Shown in pieces: positions 6,570 through 12,065 of a stretch of DNA of 23,801 bases. The stretch's first letter is position 1. Every line of letters begins with the position of its first letter. This stretch comes from a virus, in the IMG/VR virus record IMGVR_UViG_3300042507_008178, positions 1 to 23,801 of that record; one strand, written 5' to 3'. A program made the translations under genes and the position numbers. Below the pieces are notes generated by a model. The model saw nothing but the letters and a program-made list of their open reading frames with translations, was not told where the DNA came from and did not search any database.

Positions 6570-7643
6570 ATGAAAGTCGGTTTCGCCTCCTGTGACTGGT
6601 CTCGCAGCGTTTATGACGCCAGCGGGCACCCCGTCATGGGCGGAGCAGGATGGGCGCGCCTTGGCCAATACAGTAAACGCATTGACTCCGTTAAAGCAGT
6701 TGGAGTTTTAGCGCACAGCGAACAAAAACAGATTTTTGGTGTGCGGACTTGGGACAACACTGACCATTTTGACTTAGATGTCATTGTCATGCAACGAGTT
6801 ATGTTTGAAGACGTTGCCGACAAAATTAAAATTGCTCGTGCTCACGGGCAAATCATTATTAATGATTTAGATGATTGGTACTGGGGTTTATCAACATCCA
6901 ATCATGCTTGGAAAGCAAGTCACCCCAAGTACAACCCAACAGAAAATATTAATCATTACAAATCCATTCTCGCGGCATCCAATTACGTAACGGTTTCAAC
7001 ACCGTATTTGGCGCAACGAATTTCGTCTTGGGTTAAATCACCCATTGAGGTTTTGCCAAACACTGTTGACCTTAACCGGTTTGCAAAAAGAGAAGTTACT
7101 GATACTGAAATCCCTATTGTTGGGTGGGTGGGCTCAACTGCTCACCGGTCTAACGATTTGGAACAAATGCGTGGAGTGCTTTCCCCTATGTGGTCTGAAG
7201 GGAAAATTCTCCTTCACCATTCCGGCTACTTGAAGGGTCACCCACTTTTTGCCGATGCAATTGGTGTGCACCCTCGTTTGGTTTCGACTTTGCCGCTTGT
7301 TGCGCCGGAAGATTACCCGAGTGTTTTTCAGTTTGATGTTGGCATTGTTCCTTTAAGTGACGTTCCGTTCAATCAAGCAAAAAGTGCAATTAAAGGTTTG
7401 GAATATGCGGCAGCAGGAATTCCTTTTGTTGCTTCCCCTCTTGACGAATACCGTTTATTGGCGGAGCAAGGTATTGGTGTTGTGGCAAAAAAGTCTCGTC
7501 ACTGGCGTCCAATTTTAGAATCTTTGCGTGACCCGAAATTTCGAAAAGAACTATCGGAACAGGCGACCGAAGCCATTGTTTTGCACGACATTGGTGTTGG
7601 TGTTGAAAGACTGAAGTCTTTTCTTGAAAGCGTTAAATCATGA
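6570..7643 (+). CDS. GT-B fold glycosyltransferase (GT4-like)
   Basis: A 357-residue enzyme. The N-terminus has the GT-B opening MKVGFASCDWSR with a GGAGWARLGQY loop that could bind acceptor or donor. D99-L100-D101-D102-W103 ends a first-domain strand. VEVLPNTVDLNRF-type sequence (here IEVLPNTVDLNRF) marks the domain linker, GWVGS opens the second Rossmann domain, and E278 in AIKGLEYAAAGIPFVASP is the donor-binding E motif of GT4 enzymes. It would transfer a sugar from a nucleotide donor; the acceptor cannot be read from sequence. Candidates are phage virion proteins, host surface glycans or modified bases in phage DNA. It lies two bases after the coiled-coil gene and overlaps the HNH gene by ATGA, inside a DNA-processing operon and not beside tail fibre genes. 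Confidence 0.87.
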   Translation: MKVGFASCDWSRSVYDASGHPVMGGAGWARLGQYSKRIDSVKAVGVLAHSEQKQIFGVRTWDNTDHFDLDVIVMQRVMFEDVADKIKIARAHGQIIINDLDDWYWGLSTSNHAWKASHPKYNPTENINHYKSILAASNYVTVSTPYLAQRISSWVKSPIEVLPNTVDLNRFAKREVTDTEIPIVGWVGSTAHRSNDLEQMRGVLSPMWSEGKILLHHSGYLKGHPLFADAIGVHPRLVSTLPLVAPEDYPSVFQFDVGIVPLSDVPFNQAKSAIKGLEYAAAGIPFVASPLDEYRLLAEQGIGVVAKKSRHWRPILESLRDPKFRKELSEQATEAIVLHDIGVGVERLKSFLESVKS

Positions 7644-7942: not shown

Positions 7943-8479
7943 GTGCCCAATCCCTGTTATGTCGCCATCGGACTAGATCTGTCGTTAAGGTCAACCGGCA
8001 TTGCCACTAACGGTGAGCCCATTGTCCTTCAAACAGACCTTTTAGGTGTTCAACGTTTGGCTTGGCTGCGGGATTCAATTATTGCGCTTGTAAAGGTTGA
8101 GAACAATCCTGCCGTTTTTGTTGAAGGTTATTCGTTTGCTTCTAAAAATTCTCAAAGTCATGCCGCAGGCGAACTTGGCGGCGTAATTCGTCTTGCTTTG
8201 TGGGAGCAAGGAATTCCGTATGTTGACATTCCGCCTACCACGCGGGCAAAATTTGCTACAGGGCGCGGAAACGCCTCAAAATCGGAAGTGGTTAGCGCCG
8301 TAAGTGCCCGAACCGGAATTGTTTGGTCGGGAAAAGGCGGAGACGACCGTTGCGATGCTTGGATTTTGCGTGAGATGGGTCGTGTTTGGTTGGGTCAAAA
8401 CGAGTTGGATTGGCCACAACTGAACTTAAGTGCTTTAGAAAAAATTGACTGGTCACCTTTGGAGGGGAACAAAAAATGA
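7943..8479 (+). CDS. RuvC-like Holliday junction resolvase
   Basis: A 178-residue protein with an RNase H-fold resolvase pattern: D12 in AIGLDLSLRSTG, E61 in VFVEGYSF, the PPTTRAKFATGRGNASK loop, and the C-terminal acidic pair D134/D135 with D138 in GGDDRCDAWILREMG. These are the acidic residues that bind two metal ions in RuvC and phage resolvases. It would cut branched DNA before packaging or during recombination. GTG 7943 directly abuts the HNH stop (TAAGTG) and has GGGTGGG upstream; GTG is the only reasonable start ahead of the first strand. Its own stop overlaps the next start by ATGA. Confidence 0.9.
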   Translation: MPNPCYVAIGLDLSLRSTGIATNGEPIVLQTDLLGVQRLAWLRDSIIALVKVENNPAVFVEGYSFASKNSQSHAAGELGGVIRLALWEQGIPYVDIPPTTRAKFATGRGNASKSEVVSAVSARTGIVWSGKGGDDRCDAWILREMGRVWLGQNELDWPQLNLSALEKIDWSPLEGNKK

Positions 8480-8829
8480 ATTACGTAAAGCGTTCGCAGC
8501 CAATTAGTCAGGTTGAGATTGAAACCGAGTTGTTGCGTCTAACTGATCTGCTTGAAAACGAGACTGAGGCGTTTGAAACCCTTGCCGTCGATGCAGCGAA
8601 AAAGGAAGCGCAATACAAGTCGAACTGGGCCAAAGAGTACCTTTCAGCAAAAGGGTCAATTAAAGAACGCGAGGCTTGGGCGGATTACAAATTGGCAGAT
8701 TTTTCTTACGACCACAAAATTGCTGAAGCCCTTGTGAAGTCAAAAAGAGAAAAGTTGTCGTCGCTACGAACTTCAATGGATAGTCTTCGAACCCTAAACG
8801 CAAACGTGAGAGCGCAGGTGCTTCCATGA
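8476..8829 (+). CDS. Small coiled-coil phage protein, unknown function
   Basis: A 117-residue charged helical protein, with no membrane segment or metal motif. It has TELLRLTDLLENETEA in the first helix, a KKEAQYKSNWAKEYLSAKGS middle, and ALVKSKREKLSSLRTSMDSL near the end. The 'A..K.EA.YK..WA...LSAKGS...R...A......' layout is like unnamed phage proteins often found near resolvase and recombination genes, by recall only. The gene overlaps both neighbours by four bases (ATGA at each end), so it belongs to the same translation unit as the RuvC-like and ParB-like proteins. A role in recombination or replication complexes is inferred from position. Confidence 0.83.
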   Translation: MNYVKRSQPISQVEIETELLRLTDLLENETEAFETLAVDAAKKEAQYKSNWAKEYLSAKGSIKEREAWADYKLADFSYDHKIAEALVKSKREKLSSLRTSMDSLRTLNANVRAQVLP

Positions 8830-9656
8830 CGGCAAAAAAGTCCTCAGCCAAAAAGCCGGAATTGCAAAACGAACAAAATCACAAAATTGACCCGAGTCTG
8901 TTGATGCTTTCCGTTCCGGTCGACTCTTTAGTGCCGCTAGAAAACAACCCACGCAAAGGTGACGTAGAGGCGATTATGGCCTCCTACGACGAATTCGGTC
9001 AGGTGAAGCCCATTGTCATCCGCCCGAACGACGATGGAACCGCAACAGTAATTGCGGGCAACCATCAAACGGAAGCGGCCCGCCGCTTGGGTTGGACACA
9101 CATCGCCGCTGTCCCAATGAACACTGACGACAAGCGGGCGCTCGCATTCGCCTTAGCGGAAAACCGGACAATGGAACTGGGTCACAACGACCCGATCCTT
9201 CTTCACGACGCAATTGTTAGCGTGTTTGACGATTACTCTGAAACGTTTGAGGCGCTTGGCTGGGACGATTTCCAACTTGCAGAAATTGACGATCGTGCAA
9301 CATACTTGACCGAATCACAATCCTCGCCTTCCGGTTATATTCCGCCGGTACTTGTTGCACAACCGGGTGAGGTTCCACCTCCTGTTGCTCCAACTCAGCC
9401 TCAACCCAATGTTGAGTCGGTCAGAATTGAAGCGCCACCAAGCGTTAACTCTCGTGAGGCCGTTACTCTTGGTTCACCCAGCGTCGGTGCGGCTGGAACA
9501 AAAGCGGTTGTTCAATACATGCTGGTTTTTGATGACGCCGAACAGCAGCGTCAGTGGTACGACTTTTTGCGTTGGCTGCGTTCAGATCCGGGGACAGATG
9601 GCGACACAACAGCCGAAAAACTTTTGAATTTTGTGTCTGCTCACGGGGGGCCTTAA
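8826..9656 (+). CDS. ParB-like nuclease-domain protein (ParB-1) with C-terminal extension
   Basis: A 276-residue protein. After a Lys-rich tail (TAKKSSAKK), residues about 28-130 form a ParB/Srx-type N-terminal domain: PVDSLVPLENNPRKGDVEAI, FGQVKPIVIRPNDDG, then TVIAGNHQTEAARRLGW, the phosphate-binding box II region near residue 80, and FALAENRTMELG. A Pro-rich stretch (about 165-215) follows, then a short second domain with YMLVFDDAEQQRQWYDFLRW. In chromosomal ParB this fold binds CTP; in many phage proteins it binds or cleaves nucleotides or DNA. No classical helix-turn-helix parS-binding domain is visible, so a plasmid-style partition role is unlikely. It heads the ParB / PAPS-reductase-like cassette and overlaps the preceding stop by ATGA. 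Confidence 0.87.
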   Translation: MTAKKSSAKKPELQNEQNHKIDPSLLMLSVPVDSLVPLENNPRKGDVEAIMASYDEFGQVKPIVIRPNDDGTATVIAGNHQTEAARRLGWTHIAAVPMNTDDKRALAFALAENRTMELGHNDPILLHDAIVSVFDDYSETFEALGWDDFQLAEIDDRATYLTESQSSPSGYIPPVLVAQPGEVPPPVAPTQPQPNVESVRIEAPPSVNSREAVTLGSPSVGAAGTKAVVQYMLVFDDAEQQRQWYDFLRWLRSDPGTDGDTTAEKLLNFVSAHGGP

Positions 9657-9658
9657 TC

Positions 9659-9937
9659 GTGGACATTACTCCGGAGAAGGCGGTTCACACGCTGCGGACA
9701 GCGGACCCTTCATCACTTTTTTACTATTCGCAACACATTGCTGAAGTGTTGGAAAGTCTTATCGAGCAACAAAACCTTTTCCAATCGTTGTTAAAAAGTC
9801 TTGACGAGATTCAAATCGTTTCAGTATCGGATAATTTGCTGGAACTCTTGCTTAAGGGTAAAATGCCCAAAAGCGAAGTAAAAAATCTACTGAAAGAATT
9901 TGCTAATGCCCAAGACGAAGAATTTTTGCACCACTGA
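9659..9937 (+). CDS. Small helical protein, unknown function, in ParB/PAPS-reductase cassette
   Basis: A 92-residue acidic helical protein starting at GTG 9659, two bases after the ParB-1 stop, with a GGGGGG run ten bases upstream acting as ribosome binding site. Sequence landmarks are TPEKAVHTLRTADPSSLFYY, LESLIEQQNLFQSLLKSLDE and ELLLKGKMPKSEVKNLLKEF, with a His-rich end (EEFLHH). It has no membrane segment and no known catalytic motif. It may be a small partner subunit of the flanking enzymes; that is from position only. Confidence 0.75.
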   Translation: MDITPEKAVHTLRTADPSSLFYYSQHIAEVLESLIEQQNLFQSLLKSLDEIQIVSVSDNLLELLLKGKMPKSEVKNLLKEFANAQDEEFLHH

Positions 9938-9993
9938 ACGTTGTTATCAAAGCGGCATCGAATTGAGTGCACTTTCAACCGCACGGATGCAAC

Positions 9994-10006
9994 TTCCTGA
10001 AAGGAA
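9994..10006 (+). promoter_or_regulatory. Ribosome binding site embedded in a small hairpin
   Basis: TTCCT-GAA-AGGAA is a perfect 5-bp inverted repeat whose right arm is the AAGGAA ribosome binding site of the PAPS-reductase-like gene (GTG at 10013). It lies in the 75-base gap after the 92-residue protein gene. It could lower initiation until opened. A tight loop of three bases makes the stem only moderately stable. Confidence 0.4.
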
Positions 10007-10012
10007 CTCAAA

Positions 10013-11176
10013 GTGACGCGTCAAAGAATGTTTTTGGACATGTCGTGCGTCGACGCAGCGCGTGAGCGCATAAGACACGTTTATGACACGTTTGACACTG
10101 TGTGTGTTCAGTTTTCTGGCGGCAAAGATTCCACTGCCATCATCTACCTTGCCAAAGAAATTCATGAAGAACGCGGTTTGGGGCCAGTCAAGGTAATTTT
10201 TCGTGATGAAGAGATGGTGAACCCCGCAACAGTCAAATTTATCGAGGAAGTAAGCAATTATGACTGGGTGGATATGGAGTGGTACTGCTTGCCGTACGGT
10301 GCGGAGGTTTGGACTCTCGGGCATCGAGAATCGATTCTGCTGTGGGATCGTCAGCGTGAAAAGGAAGGTCGTTTAGTTAGGCCAATTCCTCCGGGGGCGA
10401 TCACTGCCGAGCATTTTGGTTTGGACGGCGGCAAGCCATTGCAACAATCCATCGACTATTACACAATGCAAGGCAAAACGGGTAGGGTTGCTTTCATTAC
10501 GGGTGTTAGGGCGAACGAATCAATGATTCGCTACCGTTCCTGCGTTCAAAAACTCCACGAAAATTACATTGTTGTGCCGTTTAGGATGAAAAAGTCGATC
10601 CCGCTTAGATTTGCGAAAGTGATTTACGACTGGACAACGGATGATGTGTTTAAGTTCGTCACCGAAGAGCATGGTGGAACTTTTAACGAGTTTTATGACT
10701 TGGCTTCAATTACGGGATCGAACATGCGGGTCGGGATTCCATTGCACTCGGTTGCAATTAGGAGAATTGGTGATGTTGTCGCCACCGAACCCGAATTTTA
10801 CGATCGACTTTATGAGTGTTTTCCATACATTGATGCGCAGCGTCGCTGGTGGTCTCAGTTTGATATTGAAGAGTTGATTGCCGATTACGCTAGGCGTGGC
10901 TGGTCAGGCGTTGCGGATTGCATTGAGCATTTTATGCTCACTCCCGATTTGCAGCAGAGCGCCAAGGTTTACGTTGCAAAGTTTAGGGAAAAGCACAGGA
11001 AAGATCCATTTTCTTATCCGATTGAGTGGCTGATCCGAAATCTTCTGTTAAATGAAATTAGCATTACTTCGGTGAATCCTGTCGGCCCCAAAACTCGTGC
11101 ACATGCCGTAAGAATTGCTGCCGCTCAGGCGGAAGCAGAGGCAAATGCCTTAGACACCATCGACGACTACAGGTGA
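10013..11176 (+). CDS. PAPS-reductase-like (IbrA/DUF3440-type) N-type ATP pyrophosphatase protein
   Basis: A 387-residue protein with the ATP-pyrophosphatase loop SGGKDS at residues 35-40, followed by IIYLAKEI. Next come VIFRDEEMVNPAT and a long middle region with FITGVRANESMIRYRSC, the PAPS-reductase-like 'G.R..ES..R' element. A C-terminal part carries YDWTTDDVFKF, HGGTFNEFYDLASITG and NPVGPKTRAHA. The latter elements resemble the DUF3440 region of IbrA, whose genetic partner IbrB is ParB-like, matching the downstream gene here. The family adenylates substrates and often transfers sulfur (compare DndC in DNA phosphorothioation), but a cysteine-based reductase ending (ECGLH) is absent, so true sulfate reduction is unlikely. 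GTG 10013 is chosen for AAGGAA seven bases upstream. Substrate unknown. Confidence 0.88.
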   Translation: MTRQRMFLDMSCVDAARERIRHVYDTFDTVCVQFSGGKDSTAIIYLAKEIHEERGLGPVKVIFRDEEMVNPATVKFIEEVSNYDWVDMEWYCLPYGAEVWTLGHRESILLWDRQREKEGRLVRPIPPGAITAEHFGLDGGKPLQQSIDYYTMQGKTGRVAFITGVRANESMIRYRSCVQKLHENYIVVPFRMKKSIPLRFAKVIYDWTTDDVFKFVTEEHGGTFNEFYDLASITGSNMRVGIPLHSVAIRRIGDVVATEPEFYDRLYECFPYIDAQRRWWSQFDIEELIADYARRGWSGVADCIEHFMLTPDLQQSAKVYVAKFREKHRKDPFSYPIEWLIRNLLLNEISITSVNPVGPKTRAHAVRIAAAQAEAEANALDTIDDYR

Positions 11177-11189
11177 AAGGTTTTAAAAA

Positions 11190-11738
11190 ATGGAAATTAA
11201 TTACATTCACGGTTCGGACCTCATTCCAGCACCATGGCGCTCAACTTACGTCCTGAAACCTGATCAGAAAATTCTTGTTAGTTCATTAAGGAATTTTGGG
11301 TGGGTTGCTCCGATTTTGGTGCAGGAAAAGTCTGGAATGATTATTGACGGCCATGAAAGATGGATGATTGCCGCCAATGACAGTGTGATTCAAGAGCGTG
11401 ACAATGGGATTATTCCCGCCAACGTGGTCGACTGCTCCGACATTGAGGCCATGGTCATGCATGTCAAGGTAAATCGTGCTCGTGGAATTATGCATGCCAA
11501 GGCGTTGCGTGGCACAATTCTTAAAATTTTGCGTTCTAAGGCTTATACCGAAGATGAGTTGCGGGTTGAGTTTGGCATGACGCGAGACGAAATGATGCTT
11601 TTCTCTGGCGCAAGTTTTCTTAAGGGTCGCAAAATTTCTGAACACAAGTATTCGAAGGCTTGGGTTCCGATTGAGGCCCCTCCGGGTGCTGCTGCACCTT
11701 CCGTGAAGATTGAAAAGCCGCCCAACGCTGACAGGTAG
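11190..11738 (+). CDS. Second ParB-like (IbrB-type) protein
   Basis: A 182-residue protein with a ParB/Srx-like domain: HGSDLIPAPWRSTYVLKPDQ, LRNFGWVAPILVQEKSG, then IIDGHERWMIA (53-60), the box II equivalent in which DGHERW replaces the GNHQTEA of the upstream paralogue. The second half is helical (AKALRGTILKILRSKAYTED, TRDEMMLFSG) and may be a helix-turn-helix-like or partner-binding part. The C-terminus is Pro/Ala-rich. ATG 11190 follows GAAAGG nine bases upstream and comes 13 bases after the PAPS-reductase-like stop. The pairing of PAPS-reductase-like and ParB-like genes is that of ibrA-ibrB. It shares little with ParB-1 beyond the fold pattern, so the two probably do different jobs. Confidence 0.85.
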   Translation: MEINYIHGSDLIPAPWRSTYVLKPDQKILVSSLRNFGWVAPILVQEKSGMIIDGHERWMIAANDSVIQERDNGIIPANVVDCSDIEAMVMHVKVNRARGIMHAKALRGTILKILRSKAYTEDELRVEFGMTRDEMMLFSGASFLKGRKISEHKYSKAWVPIEAPPGAAAPSVKIEKPPNADR

Positions 11739-11819: not shown

Positions 11820-12065
11820 ATGCCATCTCCCCGCTTTCTCCCAATTCGTCAATTGTTTGGTCGTGGCAGGCCCGGCGGTCAGACTCGTCAAGAGCGACGC
11901 GATGAACGACGTGAGCGTCGTCGGCAGCGAGCGGAGGCTGATCAAAATAGGCGTGAAAAAGAGCAACGAATTCGTGACTTTCGCCGTCAGCGTGATCAAG
12001 CGGAACGCGCGAGGCGTCGCGATGCCCGTCGCGGGCGCGTCCGTCGACTTTTCCGTCGCGACTGA
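11820..12065 (+). CDS. Very arginine-rich small protein
   Basis: An 81-residue protein in which about 30 residues are Arg, with Glu, Asp and Gln making most of the rest of the middle (for example QERRDERRERRRQR and REKEQRIRDFRRQRDQAER). It begins MPSPRFLPIRQLFGRGRPGG and ends RRGRVRRLFRRD. The alternating charge predicts a long single helix; the ends are strongly basic. ATG 11820 has AAGGAAA eight bases upstream. Two other frames are open across this stretch (11773-12123 plus and a long minus frame), which is expected of CGN-rich DNA; I prefer this frame for its ribosome binding site and its position before an AGGAGG-led gene. A nucleic-acid-binding, DNA-condensing or assembly role is inferred from charge alone. 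Confidence 0.62.
   Translation: MPSPRFLPIRQLFGRGRPGGQTRQERRDERRERRRQRAEADQNRREKEQRIRDFRRQRDQAERARRRDARRGRVRRLFRRD

Follow-up and report, generated by a model that had tools for sequence, protein, structure and literature searches.

What does an enzyme of the PAPS reductase fold do in a phage genome when it is accompanied by two ParB-like proteins? The question is raised by the IMG/VR virus record IMGVR_UViG_3300042507_008178, a 23.8-kb stretch (probably a fragment) that is referred to here as the window, in which ParB1 (8826-9656, 276 amino acids), an IbrA-like enzyme (10013-11176, 387 amino acids) and the IbrB-like ParB2 (11190-11738, 182 amino acids) are encoded on the + strand. In related phages the same cassette takes up a slot that otherwise holds enzymes known to alter DNA, and the three partner genes therefore probably serve to decorate the DNA of the phage itself, through a so far undescribed chemistry. 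Judging from gene context and domain matching, the cassette is likely to be a module by which the phage modifies its DNA; ParB1 would be the adaptor and the IbrA-like protein the ATP-dependent enzyme.

An initial annotation of the window had described a cassette of four genes, the additional one encoding a 92-amino-acid protein (9659-9937, + strand, GTG start) between ParB1 and the enzyme. All four open reading frames are present at these coordinates, but the core consists of ParB1, the enzyme and ParB2 only: the 92-amino-acid product matched no family in searches of Pfam and other family libraries, and its gene occurs in just 12 loci, every one of them a close relative, and is therefore non-core. 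A four-gene core was rejected for this reason. Among homologues of the enzyme, changes at the three codon positions number 75, 43 and 221 respectively, i.e. the majority falls at the third position.

A slot shared with DNA-modification modules

Sister phages without IbrA were found by searching phages with the ParB1 of the window as query, and their gene orders can be laid beside that of the B3 mycobacteriophage Heathcliff (ParB1-x-x-IbrA-ParB2-TerL-RuvC). In JAMaL and BrownCNA the order is ParB-TET/JBP-ADDT-TerS-TerL-RuvC, in Acadian ParB-TET-TAGT-PIG-L-TerS-TerL-RuvC, and in LilMcDreamy ParB-TET-ADDT-2-oxoglutarate oxygenase-P-loop kinase 3-TerL-RuvC. Saguaro has ParB-DpdA-QueC-QueD-QueE-FolE-TerS-TerL-RuvC, Bipper and Nadezda have ParB-DpdA-QueD-QueE-FolE-TerL, and Yago84 and NHagos have ParB-ABC/GNAT-formyltransferase-TerL-RuvC. 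The terminases of JAMaL, Acadian, Saguaro, LilMcDreamy, Yago84 and NHagos share 56-60% identity with that of Heathcliff, and the slot is therefore a single locus whose content has been exchanged. The B3 cassette thus shows the same arrangement as these modules, i.e. a homologous ParB, then an enzyme, beside terminase and RuvC. Such pairing also occurs at a distance from the terminase, in Finch (ParB-DpdA-QueC-QueD-QueE-FolE) and in Pickles13, where ParB is paired with Mom (PF25680, 1.2e-46). In total, 8 of the 14 IbrA-free groups have a recognised modification enzyme beside ParB, one has a candidate (ABC-GNAT and formyltransferase) and five have none.

One of these module types is already proven to modify DNA, namely the dPreQ0 type, via Rosebush (a B2 phage), the DNA of which carries dPreQ0 at ~28% of G (PMC6884629); the B2 phages and Saguaro have their first six genes in common (PMC6392294).

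The genes of JAMaL, Acadian and BrownCNA annotated as "queuine tRNA-ribosyltransferase" (loci L255:785-1759, L256:813-1691 and L260:785-1759) resemble TET/JBP dioxygenases, with a Pfam match for JAMaL and a common HRDG...H sequence. The family phrog_6059 also bears the name queuine tRNA-ribosyltransferase, and the annotation of these three genes appears to be wrong.

The C-terminal domain of ParB1 follows the partner

ParB1 consists of a ParB N-domain (approximately residues 23-168), a linker and an IbrA-partner-specific C-terminal domain (approximately residues 224-275; 9495-9650, + strand) with the pattern YxLVFDDxxQQxxWxxFxxWL...T.AE(R/K)L. It matches ParB_N (PF02195) at 6e-9, above the curated cut-off, phrog_723 at 1.7e-34, and Noc/Spo0J chains at 1e-9 to 1e-5, in line with its initial annotation as ParB-like. 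The N-domain is common to all the phages compared here (where no IbrA partner is present it still scores 84-166 bits), and its tree is independent of the partner: a single clade of IbrA partners is rejected (approximately unbiased test, p-AU 0.00094), as is a single clade of DpdA partners (0.0003), and at least six switches between IbrA and other partners are required.

The C-terminal domain, on the other hand, follows the modification partner. In the window ParB1 it is matched by its hidden Markov model at 4.5e-27 (residues 224-275), and leave-one-out profiles of the IbrA type recover every held-out partner that was tested (window 5e-18, Heathcliff 8e-24, Kovu 4e-17, Amycolatopsis 1e-22, Bacillus 4e-11, Rhizobium 6e-9) and none of the 14 non-partners, the best of which reaches 0.14. 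Saguaro is recovered by a DpdA-type profile from which it had been left out (2e-8), even though its N-domain groups with those of phages carrying TET, and LilMcDreamy is recovered by a TET-type profile (9e-20). With the 61 amino acids of the Heathcliff domain as query, 70 of 50,697 phage records were matched (Mycobacterium 52, Arthrobacter 12, Bacillus 6), and the IbrA-like enzyme is found in records of the same genera (55, 12 and 6, respectively). The simplest reading is that ParB serves as a common adaptor, the C-terminal domain of which would dock the modification enzymes belonging to it, in this case the IbrA complex.

Long ParB proteins of 527 and 532 amino acids, with a large C-terminal extension of no known family, are encoded at L258:5001-6584 and L267:3839-5437; RuvC or terminase lies nearby, and no modification enzyme is recognised there.

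Co-occurrence of ParB1, IbrA and ParB2

Profiles built from 13 IbrA, 12 ParB2 and 8 ParB1 proteins were run over 152 loci. The genes recur together across phages, whereas a lack of co-occurrence would have refuted the initial annotation on its own terms: ParB1, IbrA and ParB2 are found jointly in Mycobacterium B3 phages, prophi79-1, Arthrobacter phages, Bacillus phage 031MP004, Rhizobium phage L338C and the Amycolatopsis prophage-plasmid pAmyja1, and form a conserved unit. When neighbours within 4 kb are clustered, a ParB family accompanies 21 of the 22 IbrA lineages, while every other family accompanies at most five. The 16 viral records that reach 60 kb all contain ParB2, and 15 of them contain full-length ParB1; these records are mutually related and hence not independent, so that the independent evidence lies in the contiguous triads of unrelated phages. 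Contiguity is not universal, since in five of the 16 at least one gene of the triad lies 19-85 kb from IbrA, in some cases on the opposite strand. Some relatives lack a local ParB1 or ParB2, and in larger records the missing genes are located elsewhere. A scan of viral contigs with the single ParB1 protein gave 15 records, of which six (all below 50 kb) contain no IbrA. Overall, records with IbrA-IbrB number in the hundreds and come from phages, plasmids and bacteria.

Could the ParB genes simply serve prophage-plasmid partition or the choice of a pac site, with the enzyme as a passenger? A terminase does lie downstream of the cassette in five IbrA lineages, but no ParA is recognised in the window, and the linkage between ParB and IbrA persists away from the terminase and in bacterial chromosomes, where IbrB adjoins IbrA in 77 of 80 loci, which makes such a role very improbable.

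Three further arrangements were observed. At L065:4724-6223 and L079:5006-6043, IbrA has no adjacent ParB, and a nearby protein carries an LLNGQHR motif that resembles the motif of the DGQHR/DndB-like ParB superfamily. Microbacterium phage Dewdrop (L087:1112-6167) encodes three glycosyltransferases, an acetyltransferase, a methyltransferase and a 471-amino-acid IbrA-like protein consecutively, with no ParB gene in that stretch. Upstream of the classical IbrA-IbrB pairs of Streptococcus, Lactobacillus and Flavobacterium phages (L088:2764-4002, L089:2833-4002 and L091:2202-3401) lies a conserved protein of ~400 amino acids with a helicase-like GTGKT motif.

The IbrA-like enzyme

The enzyme matches PAPS_reduct in Pfam (3e-9) and phrog_2302 (9e-70), and its AlphaFold model (predicted local distance difference test, pLDDT, 87.5) matches PAPS reductase, human and yeast FAD synthase and the ATP sulfurylase CysD. 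A profile search returned the same kinds of protein, the adenylyltransferases FAD synthase and CysD being among the nearest solved folds, while single-sequence searches matched neither the enzyme nor ParB2 to a solved structure. Its initial assignment as a PAPS-reductase-like protein with an SGGKDS loop (residues 35-40) is thereby upheld, and the predicted fold is that of an N-type ATP pyrophosphatase. The DUF3440-like C-terminal elements that had also been ascribed to it are absent, as PF11922 is found in six of the 13 IbrA-type proteins that were aligned, the window enzyme not being among them. The motifs SGGKDS, DxE, GVRxxESxxR and DW...D are all present, corresponding to residues that are among the invariant ones of the family (the SGGKDS loop, DxE, GxRxxE...R and DW...D).

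No cysteine is invariant in alignments of 43 and 13 members, the commonest one (in 40 of 43 relatives) being Asn in both the window enzyme and classical IbrA, and the same alignments thus show no conserved counterpart of the catalytic C-terminal ECGxH cysteine of PAPS reductase (CysH). Lacking the conserved cysteines used by PAPS reductases and DndC, the protein is read, on its motifs, as an adenylating-type PP-loop enzyme.

This bears directly on whether sulfur chemistry is involved, i.e. whether the protein is a phosphorothioation enzyme like DndC, SspD or BrxP that places sulfur in the DNA backbone or a base. These proteins share the PAPS-reductase-like PP-loop fold, the models nearest to the enzyme in PADLOC are BrxP (1.1e-7) and DndC (5.9e-7), and the GxRxxESxxR motif is presumably also present in that branch, which would count in favour of sulfur. 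Furthermore, the Dnd system includes DndB, a member of the ParB superfamily (PMC10853773). However, both PADLOC matches cover residues 13-82 only, so that the similarity is confined to the PP-loop region, and the distinct cysteine dyad of DndC (PMC10853773) is not conserved in the window enzyme. No desulfurase, DndD/E or other Dnd or Ssp partner gene is found in the window, which is itself a fragment. Thiolation or phosphorothioation was rejected as the main interpretation because there is no invariant cysteine and no sulfur-transfer partner is seen in the window, and on these grounds it is unlikely. Of the earlier proposal that the cassette adenylates or thiolates a nucleic acid or nucleotide, it is thus the adenylating part, with ParB-fold partners and probably with DNA as the substrate (given the slot replacement and the partner-specific C-terminal domain), that stands; thiolation, with adenylyltransferases among the nearest solved folds, does not.

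Some related PP-loop enzymes have tRNA as their substrate (TilS, NcsA, TtuA), others FMN or sulfate (FAD synthase, CysD), and it might be argued that the target of the enzyme is RNA, a free nucleotide or a protein and that the ParB proteins are nucleotide-dependent helpers. Its ParB-fold partners have a DNA-binding architecture, however, and the cassette is exchanged with DNA-modifying modules, which renders a target other than DNA decidedly improbable.

In loci L123, L124 and L125 (4759-6861), an intein-like insert of ~300 amino acids interrupts the IbrA-like gene at W-Y-C, within a conserved strand that lies close to the active site. The insert begins with CVDGDTEVITRRG and finishes with VLADHILTGN ahead of the C.

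The second ParB-like protein

ParB2 matches phrog_2159 (9.5e-29) and contains the motifs IIDGxxR and NRARG. In Pfam, ParB_N matches the window protein at just 0.068, although it matches 32 of 48 ParB2 relatives. The AlphaFold model (pLDDT 82.9) matches the N-domains of Noc and ParB plus helices beyond the ParB core (best Foldseek E-value 5.2e-7, at moderate template modelling scores of 0.34-0.56), and a profile search matched ParB structures at 7e-8. Together this points to a ParB/Srx N-domain fold followed by a helical, helix-turn-helix-like DNA-binding domain of the ParB type, so that the initial description of both proteins as ParB-like is justified.

A predicted DNA-binding domain in ParB2 is also what would be expected if the pair were a transcription co-activator that regulates phage genes and leaves the DNA unchanged, as proposed for the action of IbrA-IbrB on prophage genes of E. 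coli, and phage IbrA-IbrB has been annotated as prophage gene expression co-activators (PMC4490671). Such a role is nevertheless unlikely, as it accounts neither for catalytic PP-loop motifs that are intact, nor for a slot in common with DpdA, TET and other modules, nor for the partner-specific C-terminal domain of ParB1; moreover, DNA modification could itself change gene expression.

The IbrB-like protein of mycobacteriophage Gaia (L090:5317-6216) has an extra N-terminal region and bears the annotation "ectoine synthase/ParB multidomain protein", possibly a hint of small-molecule chemistry.

Proposed mechanism

If the cassette is a DNA-modification module, the ParB1 N-domain would bind phage DNA and its partner-specific C-terminal domain would recruit the modification machinery. 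The IbrA-like enzyme would then convert ATP to AMP and pyrophosphate. What is activated in this way would be either the DNA itself, at a base carbonyl or a phosphate of the backbone, or a small molecule destined for attachment, and a nucleophile would be joined afterwards. ParB2, the constant second partner, probably recognises the site or gates the enzyme with nucleotide, and some phages have acetyl-, methyl- or glycosyltransferases next to the cassette, which may decorate the product. The likely purpose would be protection from host nucleases, a suggestion of the initial annotation that is plausible, and a link to packaging is possible because the cassette genes lie beside the terminase in several phages.

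A broader proposal, which we put forward only tentatively, is that a single ParB scaffold, fitted with interchangeable C-terminal domains for docking, acts as a shared adaptor for modules of unrelated chemistry (7-deazaguanine, TET hypermodification, Mom and others), IbrA-ParB2 being another such module, which would produce an as yet undescribed modification by adenylylating DNA without a catalytic cysteine. If true, bacterial and prophage IbrA-IbrB may also be DNA-modifying, with the effect on gene expression being secondary. The link between IbrA-IbrB and a DNA-modification slot makes their role directly testable on isolated laboratory phages of Mycobacterium smegmatis. The match between C-terminal domain and partner could predict the modification module of a phage, and it suggests that phages target their DNA modification by a common mechanism.

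Several points weigh against a DNA-modification module. The argument is built on sequence and gene context throughout. Classical IbrA-IbrB pairs usually have no ParB1, reside in bacterial chromosomes and prophages, and are known there only as gene-expression co-activators. ParB neighbourhoods were sampled at approximately one per phage group, and in those of Hanem, prophiGD43A-5, King2, Abba and PA_L9 no modification module was recognised beside ParB. The TET matches of JAMaL and LilMcDreamy fall under the Pfam cut-off and rest partly on the neighbouring ADDT genes. Finally, the N-domain of the window ParB1 forms a long branch, apart from the mycobacteriophage ones.

Comparison with known systems

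Like the window cassette, classical IbrA-IbrB (COG3969/DUF3440 plus a ParB-like protein) combines a PAPS-reductase-fold SGGKDS enzyme with an adjoining ParB-like partner, and SGGKDS, DxE, GxRxxESxxR and DW...D are common to both. However, the window enzyme is only 19-23% identical to classical IbrA and has no DUF3440, while cassettes of the window type add a ParB1 with its own C-terminal domain and are located on the packaging side in several phages. The DpdA-QueCDE-FolE (dPreQ0) modules of actinophages (e.g. Rosebush and Saguaro) have a homologous upstream ParB, a homologous terminase and the same terminase/RuvC slot as the Heathcliff cassette (PMC6392294), but the enzymes, the chemistry and the type of ParB C-terminal domain all differ. 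Similarly, the TET/JBP modules (TET, ADDT, TAGT, PIG-L, kinase) of Cooper-, Acadian- and Lilmcdreamyviruses share the slot and a homologous ParB N-domain, whereas their base chemistry is oxidation-based and their ParB C-terminal domain is different.

The association of ParB with DNA modification in phages has in part been published. In the phage CmoX-CmoA-CmoY pathway (5-carboxymethylcytosine), a ParBc-domain protein likewise accompanies DNA modification, although the chemistry is methyltransferase-derived and no IbrA is reported; the 2025 description calls the role of ParB unknown (PMC12783734). In phage CRB2, a ParB beside DpdA was suggested to be DpdB (PMC6392294). Phage IbrA-IbrB, on the other hand, has been described only as prophage gene expression co-activators or prophage regulators (PMC4490671, PMC8813620), and no report of IbrA among DNA-modification modules was found in the open-licence literature. 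Both IbrA as a DNA-modification module and the matching of C-terminal domain to partner appear to be new.

Neighbouring genes

The window cassette lies ~4.8 kb downstream of the terminase. A RuvC-like resolvase gene (7943-8479, + strand), which does not belong to the core, is situated immediately upstream of the cassette, and a RuvC gene is also close to it in Heathcliff and prophi79-1. The same gene run includes a phrog_1389 protein (8476-8829, + strand).

A glycosyltransferase of phrog_7162 (6570-7643, + strand) is a candidate tailoring enzyme, and its family is found within 4 kb of the cassette in 27-28 loci. A phrog_11826 methyltransferase is beside the cassette in nine loci and a GNAT protein in 15. 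As such enzymes are common in phages, a tailoring role for the glycosyl-, acetyl- and methyltransferases is only suggestive. Right after the cassette (11820-12065), the window encodes an 81-amino-acid protein that matches no family and is very rich in arginine.

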